Origin: Dehalogenimonas formicexedens
GTDB taxonomy: Bacteria > Chloroflexota > Dehalococcoidia > Dehalococcoidales > Dehalococcoidaceae
DNA: 64,000 nt
Direction: 5' to 3'
NCBI RefSeq assembly: GCF_001953175.1
Contig: NZ_CP018258.1
Location: forward strand, 1,020,210-1,084,209
Shown here: piece by piece, positions 5,410 through 44,673 of the stretch
Numbering within the stretch: the first letter of the stretch is position 1
How the letters are laid out: every line of letters starts with the position of its first letter
Program-made: the position numbers and the translations under genes
Notes under the pieces: generated by a model
What the model saw: the letters and a program-made list of their open reading frames with translations, nothing else
Told to the model about the DNA's origin: nothing
Database searches by the model: none

Positions 5410-8226
5410 TTATCCCCCTTTCATTAAGTTCACAGCGAATGGATCGGTGTATAACGGCGCCCATTTGCTATTATAATCGTCCGGTTTCGAAAACGATTGT
5501 TCGTACAATATCACCTGGGCAATTTCGATGTCCGTTAAATCTTCCTTCCACGGAGGCATATTGGTCGTCTCGACACCTTCCGTTACTTTCCAAACCCAAC
5601 GACCATAGTTGGTAAAATCGCCGCCGCTTTCTTCAAAGTTTGCCGGTTCAGGTTGGATGTATCCGGTACCCGCGGTGACTATCGAAGCTGGTCCATCACC
5701 ATGGCCGTCATCTCCATGGCACTGGGCACAATAGATTGCATACAACCCTTTCCCTTTATTGAAATCCTGTTCGGTTCCCGGGATTAACGGCTTTGGATGA
5801 TGTTGGGCATCAAAATCATCGCCTTCTTGATCCGAAACGTCTCCTGACACCGTGCGTACGGCGCCGGGACCAATGACAAAACTCATCTCATAAGTCATTA
5901 TCTTGAAGATATCATCATCGCTGACAGTCCACCCCCACGGAGGCATAGCTGTCCCAGGTACTCCTTCATGGATCCTCCAGAAATGCATCGCATCCCCGCC
6001 GGCATCCGCAAACAGAGCAATGCGTTCATGCAGGTTTGCCGGATGGGCTAATGTTTGCCTCGCGTATGGTCCCATACCGTTACCGGAATCACCGTGGCAT
6101 GGCAGACATTTTTGAGCGAAAAGAGTTTTACCTTGCTCAAAGATGTCTGCCCATTGTTTGCCAAGAGACTCAGGCCCAGTGTACGTTTGGGTTTCAGGAT
6201 CATAATACGACGCAACTTGCATCATCAAAGGAACGTGCGGATTGCTTATTAATGAAAATTCATAAGGCACTGGGGCATAAAAACCCGATGGATCCAGGTC
6301 TTCTCCACCTAACGACTGCAAATAGGCGGCTAGATTATTCAGATCTGTGTCACTCATCCAGGCAAAAGACGGCATTATCGATCGAGGTGAACGGCTGCGA
6401 GGATTAATCTCGTGTTGGATATCCCACACAGTCGGTCTTTTGCCTCCGATCTGCCCGAGACTCGGCCCTGTCCGTTCGGTTCCCAGGAAATTGGGTACCG
6501 AAAAATAGAAATCGCCTGCCTGTGACGTGTAGCCCATTGCCCAATCCTGAGGCCTTATGAACTGGTTGTGACAGTATTCGCAACCGTTTGCCTTATAGAC
6601 CAGTAATCCAGCCTGCTGAGCTTCTGTCAAAGGCTGAGCCCGCATTGAGGGAGCGTCAGCTGCATACATGTACGACATTACGAGAAAGGTGAAAGACATC
6701 AACAGGAAACCCGTCAAACCACCGATAGTAATTATCGGAACGTTGATCTTTTCCTGGCTGGTATTCATCCATTTCGAATGAGATTTGGCACTGACACCCT
6801 CGATAAGTTCGGGAATTTCAGCCTTGAAGGGGACACGGCTTTTCCACCAGGTCATGAATATTGTAATCGCAAAAATATAGGCGCCAAGGATGATGATGCC
6901 GCCCCCGATCGCGCGCCAGATAAAGCTGATACGTAAAGCAGGTAATGTTTCGACCACATTCAGGTGCATCCACCAGTCGCCGCTGGCAATCAGGCCGCTG
7001 ACCACCATCGATGAGAAGAATGTGAGGAAGCCCAGAAACGCCACCCACCAGGTAGTGCGCATCGAAAGCTTGCCTCCCCACAATTGCTTACCCCAGATCT
7101 GGGGTAATAACCAGAATATACCTCCAACGCATAAGAATCCGAATCCACCGAGCAGAGCGAGGTGGTCGTGGCTTATCGTCCACTGGTTGAAGTGTAGATA
7201 AGCGTTGGTGCTACGCAGTCCCTGCAGGGTTCCCTGGATCGACGTTAATACGTACATCACAAACCCGGCAAAAATGAACTGGAGCACGGTACTCTGAGTT
7301 AGTTTGTGCCACGACCCGCGCATAGTCAGTCCTATATTAGTCATGAAAGCCAGGACGGGCACCATCATCAACACTGTCATCACTACAGAAACGGTTTTCA
7401 GCCACTCAGGTATTGGCGATTGGAGCAAATGATGGCCGCCGACGCCGGTGTAGATTAAGGCGATGCTGAAGAAACTGATGATGGAAAGCAGGTGCGAATA
7501 TAGCGGACGATTGAGCAGTCTTGGTATAAAATAGTACCAGGCGGGAATGCCCAGCGTGGTGAACCATAATCCCAAAACGTTGTGGCCGTAATACCAGTTG
7601 AAAATGCCATCCAGAGTTCCGTTCAAAGCGCCCGTTGCTGGATGCCACATGACATTGCCGACAAAATACACGATGGGGAACCACAGCGTGGTTCCCATGT
7701 AGTACCACAGAGAAACGTAGAGTTTCGGTTCTCTTCTGGTGAGTATCGTGCCCCAGATATTGTAAATGTTAAGGAAAAGGCATGCCATGACTGCAATATC
7801 GATAGCCCAGGGCAACTCGGCGTATTCTCGTCCCTGGCTGCCGCCTAACATGATCCAGATAATTCCGGCCAGGATTCCGAAGTTCCAGAGAAATGGCGTA
7901 AACATCGCGACCTTGGCTTTGTAGAGGCCGCGCGCGCACATGCGAGGTACTGTCCAGAACATAATTCCTAGCAACCCGGAAGAAAGAAAACCGAACAGGA
8001 CGCCGTTTACGTGGGATGGCCTGATGCGCCCAAACGTATCCCAAGCTGATTCGCTCAGGAAGTCGGGAAAGAAAAATTTAATCGCAAGAAGCAGGCCGAA
8101 GGATGTGAAAAATGGGAACCACAGGGTGGCAAATATAAACCATATCTTGGCGACCTTATCGGTTTCTTTGAATTCGCTTTCGGGGGGAACGGCGACCTGT
8201 TTGACCTCTTCTGCGTGCGCGCTCAT
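5410..8226 (-). CDS. Fused cbb3-type cytochrome c oxidase CcoN-CcoO-CcoP-like
   Basis: A 938-residue fusion of proteins that are normally separate. Residues about 25-500 are the 12-helix CcoN haem-copper subunit: RPSHVNGVLFGF (haem ligand), WYYGHN and GGHHLL (CuB ligands), and TISHDHLALLGG (haem ligands). A Tyr sits six residues before the HH pair, where cbb3 oxidases carry the cross-linked Tyr. After another helix comes a CcoO-like mono-haem domain with CEYCH at about 549, followed by FIRPQDW. Two further cytochrome c domains, as in CcoP, carry CLPCH (about 707) and CAQCH (about 833). The product would hold two b-type and three c-type haems and reduce oxygen at high affinity at the membrane. 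The reading frame is unbroken, and ccoS follows. Confidence 0.93.
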   Translation of the reverse strand: MSAHAEEVKQVAVPPESEFKETDKVAKIWFIFATLWFPFFTSFGLLLAIKFFFPDFLSESAWDTFGRIRPSHVNGVLFGFLSSGLLGIMFWTVPRMCARGLYKAKVAMFTPFLWNFGILAGIIWIMLGGSQGREYAELPWAIDIAVMACLFLNIYNIWGTILTRREPKLYVSLWYYMGTTLWFPIVYFVGNVMWHPATGALNGTLDGIFNWYYGHNVLGLWFTTLGIPAWYYFIPRLLNRPLYSHLLSIISFFSIALIYTGVGGHHLLQSPIPEWLKTVSVVMTVLMMVPVLAFMTNIGLTMRGSWHKLTQSTVLQFIFAGFVMYVLTSIQGTLQGLRSTNAYLHFNQWTISHDHLALLGGFGFLCVGGIFWLLPQIWGKQLWGGKLSMRTTWWVAFLGFLTFFSSMVVSGLIASGDWWMHLNVVETLPALRISFIWRAIGGGIIILGAYIFAITIFMTWWKSRVPFKAEIPELIEGVSAKSHSKWMNTSQEKINVPIITIGGLTGFLLMSFTFLVMSYMYAADAPSMRAQPLTEAQQAGLLVYKANGCEYCHNQFIRPQDWAMGYTSQAGDFYFSVPNFLGTERTGPSLGQIGGKRPTVWDIQHEINPRSRSPRSIMPSFAWMSDTDLNNLAAYLQSLGGEDLDPSGFYAPVPYEFSLISNPHVPLMMQVASYYDPETQTYTGPESLGKQWADIFEQGKTLFAQKCLPCHGDSGNGMGPYARQTLAHPANLHERIALFADAGGDAMHFWRIHEGVPGTAMPPWGWTVSDDDIFKIMTYEMSFVIGPGAVRTVSGDVSDQEGDDFDAQHHPKPLIPGTEQDFNKGKGLYAIYCAQCHGDDGHGDGPASIVTAGTGYIQPEPANFEESGGDFTNYGRWVWKVTEGVETTNMPPWKEDLTDIEIAQVILYEQSFSKPDDYNSKWAPLYTDPFAVNLMKGG

Positions 8227-40179: not shown

Positions 40180-41217
40180 ATGGAAAACGCCAAAGCCAAG
40201 GAAACAATCCTGGTTGTCGATGACGAACCGATAGTCAGGCGGTTGCTGCACCAGAAACTGGCTATTGAAGGCTATGCCTGCCTTGAGGCCGGCTGCGCCG
40301 ATGAGGCCCTGGAAGTTCTCAAGCGAAATGCCGACATCGCACTTATCGTGTCGGATATGAAAATGCCCGGTAAAACCGGCATGGAACTGCTGGCAGAGGT
40401 CAGGGTGTTGTATCCGGATACGGCCATGATCATCGCCACCGCGGTTACCGAAACGGCTACAGCTATCGAATGTATGAAACAGGGCGCCTACGACTACCTG
40501 ACGAAGCCGTTCAAGCTCGACGAAGTCCTGTTCTCCATCTGGCGAGCCCTGGACAAACGCCGCCTCCAACTGGAAAACCGGGAATACCGCCAAAACCTTG
40601 AAACCAAGGTGGAATACCAGGCGCAGAAAATCCGGTCCTCATTCTTTAACGCCATCACCTCCCTGGCCTACGCTCTCGACGCCAAGGACGGCTACACCGC
40701 CGGCCACTCCGAGCGGGTTTCGGAAATTGCGGTGGGTATCGGTATCGAACTGGATCTGCCTCAGGTTGAAATGGAACGGTTGAGGCTGGCCGGCAAGGTC
40801 CACGACATCGGCAATATAGGCATCGACGGTACTATACTGCATAAACCTGGCGCTTTGGACCCTGAAGAGAGGGCTGAAATGGAACGCCACCCCGCCCTCG
40901 GGGAGCGCATCCTCCAGCCCGTGGTTGAGGACGAGGCGGTTCTTGCCATGGTGCGCAACCACCACGAGCGGTGGGACGGTCAGGGTTACCCGGATATGCT
41001 GGCGGGGGAAGGCATACCGCTGGGCGCCCGCATCCTGGCGCTGGCTGACACCTTCGATGCCATGACCTCAGCGCGGCCGTACCGGACCGCGATGACGGTG
41101 GATTTCGCCACTAACGAGATCGAACGATGCGCCGGAACCCAATTCGATCCCGCTGTGGTTAACGCCTTCAAAAATGCCCGCCGCGTCATTACCGAAGCCG
41201 TCAAGCTGACCGAATAA
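40180..41217 (+). CDS. Receiver-HD-GYP protein, c-di-GMP phosphodiesterase
   Basis: A 345-residue response regulator. The N-terminal receiver domain has ILVVDDEPIV, the phospho-acceptor Asp in IVSDMKMPGKTG and the Lys in LTKPFKLDE. After a linker helix comes the HD-GYP domain, with the first His in AGHSERV, the HD doublet in LAGKVHDIGNIG, HPALGERIL, NHHERWDGQGYPDMLAGEGIP and ADTFDAMTSARPYR. Such proteins hydrolyse cyclic di-GMP, and phosphorylation is expected to control activity. It is preceded by the frameshifted receiver gene and followed by the unassigned structured RNA and surface-protein genes, whose expression may depend on c-di-GMP. Confidence 0.93.
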   Translation: MENAKAKETILVVDDEPIVRRLLHQKLAIEGYACLEAGCADEALEVLKRNADIALIVSDMKMPGKTGMELLAEVRVLYPDTAMIIATAVTETATAIECMKQGAYDYLTKPFKLDEVLFSIWRALDKRRLQLENREYRQNLETKVEYQAQKIRSSFFNAITSLAYALDAKDGYTAGHSERVSEIAVGIGIELDLPQVEMERLRLAGKVHDIGNIGIDGTILHKPGALDPEERAEMERHPALGERILQPVVEDEAVLAMVRNHHERWDGQGYPDMLAGEGIPLGARILALADTFDAMTSARPYRTAMTVDFATNEIERCAGTQFDPAVVNAFKNARRVITEAVKLTE

Positions 41218-41325
41218 CTCACACTCATCTCGTGTTGTCGGGTGTCTCCTCTGAGCGACATAGTCACTCCGCGGCAATTTAGTGGCCTGGCCCTGCGTTA
41301 ACCTCATCTTAACTTACAATTTTCA

Positions 41326-41354
41326 TTGACAGGCCGGTAAATTTGGAACATAAT
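41326..41354 (+). promoter_or_regulatory. Strong sigma-70 promoter
   Basis: A perfect TTGACA (41326-41331), exactly 17 bp, and CATAAT (41349-41354), one mismatch from consensus. It would start RNA at about 41361. Confidence 0.7.
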
Positions 41355-41360
41355 TTGCCA

Positions 41361-41508
41361 GTTTCCAGTAACTTTCCGAAACTACTTGATGGGAAGAGGC
41401 CGACGACGGATCATGATCCTCTCAAATCTTGACCAATCCGAGATAGCATCTGGGACTCCCATCGATCAAGCTCCAAAAAACAGGCCAGCGAAAACCGCTG
41501 GTTTTTTT
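41361..41508 (+). ncRNA. Candidate structured leader RNA or small RNA, unassigned
   Basis: The predicted transcript of about 148 bases folds by eye into a three-way junction. P1 pairs CTTGATGGG (41385-41393) with CCC-ATCG-ATCAAG (41458-41470, four-base bulge). P2 pairs AGAGG (41395-41399) with CCTCT (41418-41422). P3 is TCCGAGAT (41437-41444) with ATCTGGGA (41448-41455), with one mismatch. A terminator follows at once, and 100 bases later the surface-protein gene starts. This is the layout of a riboswitch or attenuator, or of a free-standing small RNA. It does not show the conserved bases of the c-di-GMP-I class. Confidence 0.45.
41485..41508 (+). terminator. Intrinsic terminator upstream of the surface-protein gene
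   Basis: CCAGCG, loop AAAAC, CGCTGG and seven T form a textbook intrinsic terminator. It would stop any transcript from the promoter at 41326 unless relieved. Confidence 0.85.
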
Positions 41509-41608
41509 ATGCCCAAGGGACACCTCCAATTTGGGTAGGTGCCGGTCGGTCCTGGGCGTCAATAAAATAGCAGAATAGGTTACAAATAATCGACGAAGGA
41601 GAACAAAA

Positions 41609-42106
41609 TTGAAAAAAAGAATCCTTGTAATCGGGACTATTCTTTCTTTAGCAATGGTGACTGCTTCTCCGCTCAGTGTCTCTGCTGAAACCACTGTCAT
41701 TTCAGGCACTATTGCTAACACCGCGGTTTTGACGGCGCCATCAAACATAACCTTTACAAACTTCGTTGTAGGTACTAATACAGGCTCATCGACAACTCCA
41801 GGTTCGGTTGTAGCGAATGCATCTGGATGGTCCCTTGAAGTCACGGATGCAAAAGTAGAAAGTAAAGGATATATGACAAGAGCGGATGGTAATAATCTTT
41901 CCGCTCTGATTCAGGTCGGTATGACATCTGGAAGCGTGACGACTATCTCTCTTTATCAGGCCCAGCTAGTGGCTGATACTGCTCATGGATATGGTGCTGC
42001 GGGTACGTTCACGATCCCACTATACGTTAGCCAGTTGGTAGGTACAGGAGACCTTCCTGGGGCATATTCAATCACATTGACCTACACAGCGACGCCTGCA
42101 TCCTAG
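41609..42106 (+). CDS. Secreted WxL-like surface protein
   Basis: A 165-residue exported protein with a clear signal peptide (MKKRILVIGTILSLAM, cleavage near VSAETT). The mature part is a beta-sandwich rich in Thr, Ser and Gly, with the pattern FTNFVVGTNTG, ASGWSLEVTDA and late TIPLYVSQLVG...YSITLTYTA. This resembles the WxL/camelysin-type domains that attach to the cell surface. TTG start with AAGGAG 7 bases upstream. It is AT-richer than the flanking core genes. A 14-bp hairpin after the stop would allow it to be expressed above the next gene. The neighbouring DUF916-like protein is the usual partner of WxL proteins. Confidence 0.75.
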   Translation: MKKRILVIGTILSLAMVTASPLSVSAETTVISGTIANTAVLTAPSNITFTNFVVGTNTGSSTTPGSVVANASGWSLEVTDAKVESKGYMTRADGNNLSALIQVGMTSGSVTTISLYQAQLVADTAHGYGAAGTFTIPLYVSQLVGTGDLPGAYSITLTYTATPAS

Positions 42107-42113
42107 TAACCTG

Positions 42114-42143
42114 CTTGGCGGCGGCTTTCAAGCCGCCGCCAAG
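42114..42143 (+). terminator. Very stable hairpin between surface-protein genes
   Basis: CTTGGCGGCGGCTT and AAGCCGCCGCCAAG form a perfect 14-bp GC-rich inverted repeat with almost no loop. No T-run follows. It probably reduces read-through or protects the 3' end of the upstream mRNA. Confidence 0.6.
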
Positions 42144-42220
42144 TCTAGATATAGCAACGACTAAACTAGACTTGGAAAGTTCTTTTCGGTTCGAGTAAGG
42201 ATTGTGTACTGCTCAGATCA

Positions 42221-43234
42221 ATGATTAATAGACACTTCAGGTTTTTGTTGGTCACCGTAATAGTATCAATGTTGAGTCTCTTTGTTGCGCCTGGAATAGT
42301 TCGTGCAAGCACAGGTATCTCTCTAACACCTTTCGAATCTATAAAAATCGATGTATCGCCCGGGAGTACTGTTACCCATCGGATGACACTGCAACTTGGC
42401 ACCGAAAATCGGGCAATGGACGTGGCAGTTGATATCATGGGATACGGCAGCTCTCCAGACGGTTCAGTTCAAACAATTACGCCTGTTCAGGATGTGAGCC
42501 CTTACTCGGCGCGCGCTTTTATCAGGATCGACAAGCCAACATTCCATCTGGATCCGGGCGGGTCTCAGGATATTGTGGCCACAATATCGATTCCTTCCGA
42601 TATAGGCAGCGGCGGAAGATACGCCGTTATTTATATCCATGAACTGCCTCCTGCAGGAGGAACAGGAAGTCTTTCTGCCTTCAATATCCCTGTTCTTCTC
42701 ACGATTAAAGGCAGCACCCTTACCCACACGGCAACCGTAACCGAGGTCAAAGCAGGGAAAGTTGCAAGCGGTCAGCCGATCGAAATTTCCACTACCTTTC
42801 GGAACACAGGAAACCATCATTACAAGGTGACCGGCGAAATAGCGATCTCAAATTCACAGGGACTGGTGATCGATACCATTCAAATTCCTCTCTCGTCCTC
42901 ATCGATAATTCCCGGGAGCATACGCCAGATTAGCGCGCTTTATTTCCCTAAAATCACCCTCTCCCAGGGTGTTTATTCAATTAATACCAGGTTGGTTTTG
43001 GAAGATGGAACCTACTTGGTTTCTGGGAATGGCAGTTTTGAAGTCATCGGTCCCTACGCGACACCTACTTCGATTCCAACTACCTCACCCGCGTCAACCG
43101 AAATAGTTCCCTCCTCCTCTCCAACATCCGCCTCGAAAGGGATATCGGTAACGCTCCTCGCCGGGATCGCCGCCGGAGCATTACTTATCGTCATCGCCAT
43201 GTTCGCCGCGGGTAATAAAAAAGCAGCCAGATGA
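42221..43234 (+). CDS. DUF916-like cell-surface protein (WxL-interacting type)
   Basis: A 337-residue type I membrane protein: signal peptide (cleavage near IVRAST), two immunoglobulin-like beta domains (about residues 35-150 and 155-260), a Ser/Thr/Pro stalk (about 265-300), a C-terminal membrane helix and a short basic tail. The first domain has the DUF916 pattern (SLTPFESIKIDVSPGSTVTH, then ARAFIRIDKPTFHLDPGGSQ, then GRYAVIYI). In Firmicutes such proteins partner WxL surface proteins, which fits the preceding gene. It overlaps the following gene by 4 bases. Confidence 0.78.
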   Translation: MINRHFRFLLVTVIVSMLSLFVAPGIVRASTGISLTPFESIKIDVSPGSTVTHRMTLQLGTENRAMDVAVDIMGYGSSPDGSVQTITPVQDVSPYSARAFIRIDKPTFHLDPGGSQDIVATISIPSDIGSGGRYAVIYIHELPPAGGTGSLSAFNIPVLLTIKGSTLTHTATVTEVKAGKVASGQPIEISTTFRNTGNHHYKVTGEIAISNSQGLVIDTIQIPLSSSSIIPGSIRQISALYFPKITLSQGVYSINTRLVLEDGTYLVSGNGSFEVIGPYATPTSIPTTSPASTEIVPSSSPTSASKGISVTLLAGIAAGALLIVIAMFAAGNKKAAR

Positions 43235-44673
43235 AACAATCGAGAGTGATCCTGGGGGTTTTCGTAGCGGGACTGCTTTCCGCCTGTCCGGTCGCGGTCG
43301 CCGCCCAGGGCGGCACCGACATCACCGGCACTATCCCGCTGGAGACCTCCAACATCAACTCCTCGGGGCTCACGGCGTCCGGCGCGGTTATAACGTGGGA
43401 AACCAACGGCGGCGCTACCTCCCAGGTCTATTACGACACTTCATCCCATGCGGACATCAATGATTACGCTCACAGCACCGAGATCGACCTGACGCTGGTT
43501 TCCGCTCACAGCGTGACGCTCTCCGGGCTAACCGCCGGAACAACCTACCATTACCGGGTGAAGTCGGAGATCCCGGATACCGTTTTTTCGACTATTTCAG
43601 ATGACGGCACCTTCGCGACTTCCGCCTCGGGCGGCGGCGGAGGCGGCGGTGGCGGTGGCGGCTTCGGCAGCCAGCTTATCGGCATCGGGCTTTCCGGGAC
43701 GTCGCCGTTCATGGACGGCAACGGCAGGGCGATTACCGCCGGTGAGATCAAGACGGCTGACGGCAAAGTGTCTCTCTCTGTCCCCGTCGGAGTCTACATC
43801 TGGAACGCCGCCGGAGCTGCCCAGCCCTTCCTTTCAGCCCAGCCGCTCGCCAATCCGCCGCCTGCCCCGCCGGAAAACAGCCTGGTGATGGCCATTGAAA
43901 TGGGCCCTAACGGGGTCACTTTCAACCCGGCTGTCACCCTCACCTTCAATTATAAAGACAGCGACCTTCCCTCCGGCGCCCGCGAAGCCGATCTCTACAT
44001 CGCCTGGTGGGACGGCACGCAGTGGGTCAAGCTCCTCGGCACGGTGAATGCTTCAGCCAACACCGTTTCCGTCCAGGTAACCCATTTCACCAGCTATGCC
44101 CTGCTGATCCCGGCAGCGCCCCCGGTCCTCACTCCCACCCTCAAGATCGCCGGCCCGCTGACCGGGACCTCGTTCGATTCCGGCGACGTGACCATCTCCA
44201 TAAACGCGGGCAACATCAACCTGGTGGGCGATAACCGGCCTAACGCGCCTGGCGAAGGCAGGGTTGTCTACTACCTCGACGTGCCGATCCCCACGACACC
44301 AGGAGCGAGTGCGTTCAGCGCGGCGGGGACTTATAAGGAAAGCGAATCGACCACCAACGGCTGGACCGGCCTGGCGCCCGGCATCCATATCCTGGGGGTT
44401 CAGCTGGTTCAGAACGACCACACCCCCTTCAGTCCGCCCCTCTTCGCCACAGTCAGCGTCACAATCAAGGCAGCCGTGATCGCGCCGCCGACCACGACTG
44501 TTCCTATACCGACGTCAGAGTCGCCGATAATCACAACGCCTCCAACACCCGACCAAACCAAGCCCGGTTGGTTAATTCCAATTTTATTCTTTGTTGCCGC
44601 GGCAGGTGTCGCCGTTTTCATTTTCTGGAGATCACGCAGACCCGAGGCAAAGCTGAAGTACACCAACAGATAA
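43231..44673 (+). CDS. Multidomain surface protein with FN3 and TM anchor
   Basis: A 480-residue exported protein with a signal peptide (cleavage near VAVAAQ). A fibronectin type III-like domain (about residues 40-130) with GLTAGTTYHYRV is followed by an 11-glycine linker and a domain with GVTFNPAVTLTFNY and VTHFTSYALLI, as in ZU5/DUF-type surface domains. A third domain (about residues 305-410) shares the PGEGRVVYYLDV and PGIHILGVQLVQNDHTP pattern with the lipoprotein at 8249-8686. A Thr/Pro linker, a membrane helix and a basic tail close it. It is the third gene of the surface cluster. The C-terminal anchor places it on the outer face of the cell. Confidence 0.82.
   Translation: MKQSRVILGVFVAGLLSACPVAVAAQGGTDITGTIPLETSNINSSGLTASGAVITWETNGGATSQVYYDTSSHADINDYAHSTEIDLTLVSAHSVTLSGLTAGTTYHYRVKSEIPDTVFSTISDDGTFATSASGGGGGGGGGGGFGSQLIGIGLSGTSPFMDGNGRAITAGEIKTADGKVSLSVPVGVYIWNAAGAAQPFLSAQPLANPPPAPPENSLVMAIEMGPNGVTFNPAVTLTFNYKDSDLPSGAREADLYIAWWDGTQWVKLLGTVNASANTVSVQVTHFTSYALLIPAAPPVLTPTLKIAGPLTGTSFDSGDVTISINAGNINLVGDNRPNAPGEGRVVYYLDVPIPTTPGASAFSAAGTYKESESTTNGWTGLAPGIHILGVQLVQNDHTPFSPPLFATVSVTIKAAVIAPPTTTVPIPTSESPIITTPPTPDQTKPGWLIPILFFVAAAGVAVFIFWRSRRPEAKLKYTNR

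Follow-up and report, generated by a model that had tools for sequence, protein, structure and literature searches.

The c-di-GMP-I (GEMM) riboswitch (RF01051) is a short leader RNA that precedes varied genes, many of them coding for surface or exported proteins. The locus described here lies in a 64,000-nucleotide stretch of DNA (the window) and comprises a promoter-terminator unit (element A) and a conserved hairpin (element B), both located ahead of a surface-protein operon (Table 1). Element B resembles c-di-GMP-I in being a short leader before varied surface- and exported-protein genes, and an HD-GYP gene adjoins the leader in the window. It differs in that no c-di-GMP family in Rfam matches it, and in that the HD-GYP adjacency is not conserved; the conserved letters and helix layout are also different. 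Element A shares the order promoter, leader, terminator, gene with the Trp leader attenuator (RF00513), but its score for that family was 19.0 bits (gathering score, 41), gained mainly on the terminator, with no conserved leader peptide and no antiterminator seen.

Comparative genomics has provided 104 candidate structured RNA motifs, whose Chloroflexi entries include Chloroflexi-1 and pan (PMC2864571). Like such orphan motifs, element B has conserved letters, covariation, a position before genes, and no assigned ligand; it differs from them in having no Rfam match. Other strains of Dehalogenimonas are reported to have a Moco riboswitch, which precedes moaA/moaC (PMC13390414). It shares with element B the genus and the character of a cis RNA, but belongs to other strains and another locus, and element B is again set apart by its lack of an Rfam match.

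At gathering scores, Rfam 15 gave no leader match in the window (only tRNA elsewhere), no match at 10 family loci, and only tRNAs at 12 further loci. Scans at E ≤ 10 of window positions 41200-41750 and of loci L098, L099, and L120 yielded no credible match; the best was of the terminator type and scored 26.2 bits, where 51.4 is the gathering score. Known Rfam classes, including c-di-GMP-I, c-di-GMP-II, 6S, and T-box, were rejected, since none reaches its gathering score. The statement in the preliminary description that the leader fits no recognized class thus holds for Rfam, in both the gathering-score search and the regional E-value scans. Among open-licence PMC papers, none was found on Dehalogenimonas noncoding RNA or WxL and none on a GGUCGGUC riboswitch, and none of the titles listed described element B.

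Judging from the sequence comparisons presented below, element B is probably a 5′ UTR leader RNA of Dehalococcoidia exported-protein mRNAs that has no match in Rfam 15. In the window it would stand behind an extra promoter-terminator unit, and read-through would be needed for expression of the surface genes. This two-element reading is built on conservation, gene linkage, covariation above controls, and the terminator fold, from which we infer action in cis, read-through, and regulation. If it is true, the little-studied Dehalococcoidia, known for the breakdown of chlorinated pollutants, would have a leader-RNA family of their own, tied to cell-surface display, and the ca. 20 aligned copies with their covariance model would be a resource for seeking a ligand or partner. 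The target for experiments is also corrected: probing only the three pairings proposed in the preliminary description (P1-P3) would miss the conserved element B.

Table 1. Features of the leader and the surface operon, in window positions
Feature	Position	Strand	Remarks
Promoter TTGACA-17-CATAAT, sigma-70-type (element A)	41326-41354	+	11/12 consensus positions
Element A, transcribed stretch to U run	41360-41508	+	start site inferred from promoter
Conserved block GTAACTTTCCGAAAC in element A	41368-41382	+	identical in G004 (15 bases)
Conserved block CAAATCTTGACCAATCCG in element A	41423-41440	+	identical in G004 (18 bases)
Intrinsic terminator, stem 41482-41504 then U run	41482-41508	+	scan, fold, 9/12 stem pairs retained by G004
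Element B, conserved leader hairpin	41511-41557	+	41511-41515 pairs with 41553-41557 as outer stem; inner stem; GGUCGGUC in 3′ strand of internal loop
Most conserved stretch of element B, GCCGGTCGGTC	41541-41551	+	invariant but for one position in 4 genus copies
RBS-like GAAGGAG before TTG start at 41609	41595-41601	+	read from sequence
Gene 1, exported/surface-type protein, 165 aa	41609-42106	+	signal-peptide-like N terminus; homologues behind element B in G139, G296
Gene 2, exported protein, 337 aa	42221-43234	+	no Pfam family at E ≤ 0.001; 45% aa identity to G139 gene 2
Gene 3, Pur_ac_phosph_N/fn3-type surface protein	43231-44673	+	

The promoter-terminator unit and its surroundings

The genome that contains the window (G000) is a single contig of 2,092,789 bases, and was compared with seven other genomes of the genus. 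With its promoter, element A spans positions 41326-41508, i.e., the promoter, about 148 nt, and the terminator. The near-perfect promoter claimed in the preliminary description is present and is conserved in a second species (G004), where the matching position carries TTGACA-17-GATAAT. There are four sites with at least 11/12 consensus positions on both strands of the window, while order-1 Markov simulations of equal length gave a mean of 0.4 (10 simulations). The terminator, also proposed earlier, was borne out; the pair probability of its core is 1.0 in both the window and the G004 homologue. A terminator-like scan match is not rare (2 sites were found in 1600 bases vs. 1.5 expected from shuffles), and it is the conservation in the homologue (29/39 identical bases in the promoter region and 31/35 in the terminator), rather than the scan match as such, that supports the promoter and terminator. 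T's are also found beyond the terminator stem on the − strand.

In a blastn search of 101 genomes, including that of the window, G004 contained the only convincing homologue of element A (74% identity over 196 query bases). A sequence model of these two copies (R1), run on 393 genomes of the class, recovered them with E-values of 2.2e-26 (G000) and 4.6e-25 (G004) and no other convincing match; eleven further genomes, with E-values of 0.0085-0.093, were at chance level. The element A pattern is present in 2/8 genus genomes, and the conservation of promoter, body, and terminator is limited to these two species. Across wider genome contigs, the pattern had one match, in Rhodopseudomonas, that was judged to be due to chance. 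The identity between the two copies (90/122) is within the range of other intergenic stretches (42/67, 10/15, 113/152, and 128/165; 63-78%) and exceeds that at fourfold-degenerate positions in three flanking genes (0.49-0.55). The possibility that element A codes for a leader peptide was considered and rejected by eye: an ATG is followed by NLDQS in both species, and the frames diverge afterwards. This ATG-started frame (41414-41538), seen inside element A in both species, is probably not coding.

The preliminary description placed a three-way junction, P1-P3, between the promoter and the terminator. The minimum free energy (MFE) fold of positions 41360-41511 is a three-way junction (−41.2 kcal/mol, z −2.18, matched by 3 of 200 shuffles). 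For positions 41360-41475, which exclude the terminator, z was −0.61, and 49 of 200 shuffles folded as well. Element A of G004 has an MFE fold different from that of the window, and the junction is the optimal fold of a single sequence. Pairs of the window fold were kept there in the 5′ hairpin (4/6), the long closing helix (5/9), the right arm (4/7), and the terminator (9/12), but P3 kept 1/5 pairs and its upper part (tip) 0/3. The alignment suggested earlier as a check on P1-P3 thus rested on one homologue, whose retained pairs speak against them, and the three-way junction was rejected on the basis of its z without the terminator and of the pairs lost in the homologue. A P1-P3 riboswitch with the terminator as its expression platform would account for the order promoter, structure, terminator, gene, and for the z of the complete fold. 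Yet that z depends on the terminator, the homologue folds differently and has lost most of P3, and no credible Rfam match exists, and we consider such a riboswitch very unlikely. Partners competing for the element A terminator were sought by eye, and no antiterminator pairing was seen.

Upstream of the leader, positions 40180-41217 code for an HD-GYP-type response regulator (Pfam HD_5). The adjacency of a c-di-GMP phosphodiesterase gene, pointed out in the preliminary description, is therefore true of the window, but it is not conserved: in G004 the HD-GYP orthologue (93% amino acid identity) is located at 810 kb and the leader at 1,076 kb, and the gene preceding the leader is a fabF-like gene on the other strand. 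Similarity to G004 on the leader side starts at 41321, just before the promoter. Because the upstream neighbour differs between species and the HD-GYP orthologue is distant, the leader goes with the operon rather than the phosphodiesterase gene. The HD-GYP gene was rejected as a functional partner, since the adjacency is not conserved; as gene order indicates, this gene is a chance neighbour of the leader. The interval 41217-41321 spans a rearrangement breakpoint: in G004, about 265 kb separate its HD-GYP flank from its operon flank.

Amino acid identity to G004 is 25% for gene 1 and 37% for gene 2, vs. 82-91% for gene 3 and the next two genes. Genes 1-2 (41609-43234) may be a replaced or fast-changing surface cassette. 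Gene 1 is rare, being found by protein search in 3/101 genomes, its own among them, and its predicted structure has a mean pLDDT of 50.1.

Element B in the genus and in the class

Element B is located between the terminator and the first surface gene and is characterized by the outer stem GCCCA/UGGGC and the conserved GGUCGRUC. The window and G004 share AGGTGCCGGTCG and TGGGC between the terminator and the start codon, and the same motif is found in the leaders of a related gene 1 in G007 and G003. The search pattern GCCC-N(10-40)-GCCGGTCGRTC-N(1-3)-GGGC had a single match in each of 4/8 genus genomes (G000, G003, G004, and G007), always before the first surface gene, while a reversed control pattern had no match in the eight. 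All 7 modelled pairs form in each of the 4 genus copies, with one outer pair being A-U in two and C-G in two. The earlier claim of a structured leader RNA between the promoter and the surface operon is supported as far as the leader RNA goes, but the conserved hairpin (41511-41557) lies past the terminator and is not P1-P3. G050 contains genes 1 and 2 with no detectable element B; in G078 the contig ends at gene 1, and the upstream sequence is absent from the assembly. A long stretch precedes gene 1 in L098 and L099, which contains a 16-bp inverted repeat beginning CAGGCTGTCCACCACG (6972-7007 and 7247-7282, respectively) and, on the other strand, a tRNA gene.

In G007 and G003, element A is absent although element B is present, and a promoter-like sequence, TTGTAA-17-TATTAT (9/12), ends about 25 nt upstream of element B. 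These genomes are consistent with element A being a small RNA gene in its own right, about 148 nt long, with the operon having its own unrecognized promoter and element B being unrelated to A. The promoter and terminator of element A, both kept in G004, and the lack of a visible antiterminator pairing point the same way. Nevertheless, element A stays beside the operon in both species despite their differing upstream neighbours, no second consensus promoter was seen before gene 1 in either the window or G004, and the element A pattern is confined to the two genomes. An independent small RNA gene is a serious contender, to which we assign somewhat less than an even chance. Under the two-element reading, since gene 1 has no further consensus promoter in view ahead of it, the majority of transcripts would end at the terminator, yielding a small RNA, and read-through transcripts would include element B and the operon. 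The promoter-terminator unit of the window would then add a read-through step ahead of element B.

A model of the four genus copies of element B (R2) was run on the 393 class genomes. At E ≤ 0.1, 33 genomes were matched: 5 of the genus (one of which, G006, was judged false from its sequence), 9/28 of family f81, and 19/357 others. Since about 0.1 matches per genome are expected by chance, only f81 stands out (Fisher test vs. others, p 5.7e-5, run with 20/357, where the match list gives 19/357); the best f81 E-values were 1.3e-4 and 6.1e-4. Matches outside f81 and the genus, other than that in G139 (family f78), were judged by eye. Two features absent from R2 are shared by most f81 copies and that of G139: a second hairpin with the sequence ACACCYY..RGGGUGGAG and, on the 5′ side, a GAUUAU box. 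The genus form has neither.

A further model (R3), built from 8 non-genus copies with no genus sequence, gave 20 matches in 15/52 f81 genomes at E ≤ 0.01, with copies outside the model build reaching 92.7 bits. On the class sample it matched 14/393 genomes at E ≤ 0.02, and there were 1 to 4 matches per genome. In the window, R3 matched 41497-41576 with 25.9 bits (next best in the window, 11.5), a score no better than those of false positives in G131 (25.9 bits) and G154 (25.8 bits); the members of R3 had been found with the genus-derived model, and the reciprocal match is not independent. Scores for the other genus copies were 20.1 bits in G004, 16.6 in G003, and 11.9 (chance level) in G007. 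The window match thus carries weight because of its position and gene linkage, not its score. R3 matches at L164, L166, and L167 were judged to be within coding sequence and dropped, and those at L156, L157, L161, and L162 (21.6-22.7 bits) are outside the 24-site count used below. Viral contigs scanned for the f81 form gave 2 and 0 matches, and R3 matched neither of the 2. A 5′ box weight matrix derived from 13 copies outside the genus (12 from f81 and 1 from f78) had its best window-leader match at 41424, which ranked 103 of 127948 in the window and is not significant.

Structure and covariation of element B

The element B family would consist of an outer stem around an asymmetric loop that carries GGUCGRUC and an inner hairpin that varies between copies; those from beyond the genus would add a second hairpin, CACCYY/RGGGUG. 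GGUCGRUC was seen by eye in 17/20 rows of an alignment of 20 copies (A6), the exceptions being L142, L150, and L122. The L154 copy has lost the second hairpin and kept the first part. Because this copy and the genus copies keep the first part without the second hairpin, the first hairpin with GGUCGRUC appears to be the common core.

In A6, which was fitted to the model and whose counts lean to it, 7/19 pairs changed on both sides vs. 3.5 in shuffled controls, and the covariation score was 0.250 vs. 0.05-0.12 in slid controls. In a structure-blind MAFFT alignment of 14 copies (A7), 3/12 pairs changed on both sides vs. 0.7 shuffled, and the covariation score was 0.210, a value reached by 12 of 500 shuffles. 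Of the A7 cells in the outer stem and second hairpin, 93.5% were paired vs. 26-52% when slid. The outer stem hardly varies; its one compensatory pair in alignment A4 was matched by 74 of 500 shuffles. Compensatory change, as estimated from these alignments, is modest, best in the inner and second hairpins and weak in the outer stem, and is above controls.

The outer arms are also an inverted repeat, and some f81 copies share a pair of 5′ boxes upstream, as might be expected of a DNA operator bound by a transcription factor rather than of an RNA. However, arm spacing varies widely, with inner hairpins that covary; sites with a called downstream ORF read towards that ORF, and where a promoter-like site is seen (G007 and G003) element B lies downstream of it. 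An operator is, in our estimate, unlikely.

Genes downstream of element B and possible modes of action

Protein matches that are independent of the RNA search tie element B to the same genes outside the genus. In G139, 36 nt separate the copy from a downstream ORF whose product has 34% identity to that of window gene 1 (E 4e-21), and the next ORF is 45% identical to window gene 2 (E 5e-77). In G296, a member of f81, the distance is 27 nt, and the ORF downstream has 37% identity to gene 1 (E 1e-21).

Twenty-four sites were listed, comprising the 20 of A6 and L098, L099, L114, and L168. A co-directional ORF of at least 100 amino acids starts within 450 nt downstream of 20 of them; at the remaining four, the ORF call runs through the element (L099), the contig ends (L158), or no such ORF was counted (L112 and L114). 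By a simple rule, 15 of these 20 ORFs have a signal-peptide-like N terminus vs. 33/176 background ORFs (p 6e-7), where the downstream counts are not independent (orthologous sites, e.g., three glutamate dehydrogenase loci, are included) and the background ORFs are mostly from the genus and not from f81. Pfam names downstream include periplasmic binding protein, beta-helix/NosD, PKD, InlB-like repeat, and lipase. The five exceptions are three glutamate dehydrogenases, one 3-hydroxyisobutyrate-dehydrogenase-like protein, and one DUF2961 protein. The glutamate dehydrogenase genes behind element B in L123, L150, and L154 are apparently orthologous loci of three f81 genomes. Element B thus stands before co-directional genes in unrelated contexts, a position that, on sequence grounds, suits a cis-regulatory leader.

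Dispersed repeats near some f81 sites raise the question of whether element B, in f81 and in the genus, is a low-copy mobile repeat whose position before genes is fortuitous. This is very unlikely, given that there are 1 to 4 matches per genome, that they are mostly co-oriented with downstream gene starts, and that they are linked to gene 1 homologues in three families.

Element B would act in cis on mRNAs of exported and surface proteins. Called start codons are found within 40 nt of the element at 8/24 sites (27-36 nt in seven and 9 nt in the eighth); for L123 and L150, the true start may lie downstream of the one picked by the ORF caller. The RBS is not in a stem of element B, no RBS masking is visible, and the close-spaced sites show no terminator or RBS-masking switch. 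Because start codons are close and there is little room for a terminator, the effect of element B would most likely come after the start of transcription, with a bound protein or ligand influencing translation or mRNA stability. A more far-reaching and tentative version of the leader reading, to which we give perhaps one chance in a few, is that element B is a new riboswitch class, so far from Dehalococcoidia only, whose ligand would set the output of surface and exported proteins (and, in one lineage, of glutamate dehydrogenase), and that in two Dehalogenimonas species it is joined with an upstream attenuator as a two-stage leader.

Several minor features were observed around f81 sites. In L145 and L160, the RNA is immediately preceded by direct repeats (GATTAACC and GATTATCC) with a spacing of about 17 nt, possibly a promoter or operator; no good −35/−10 consensus was found there. 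Dispersed repeats such as GTAGTGCGAGGC..GCCTCG and ACGACCCTGAAGGGTCG occur near sites L130, L153, and L162. At L112, the 5′ part of element B occurs a second time, as a partial copy about 650 nt upstream of the site.
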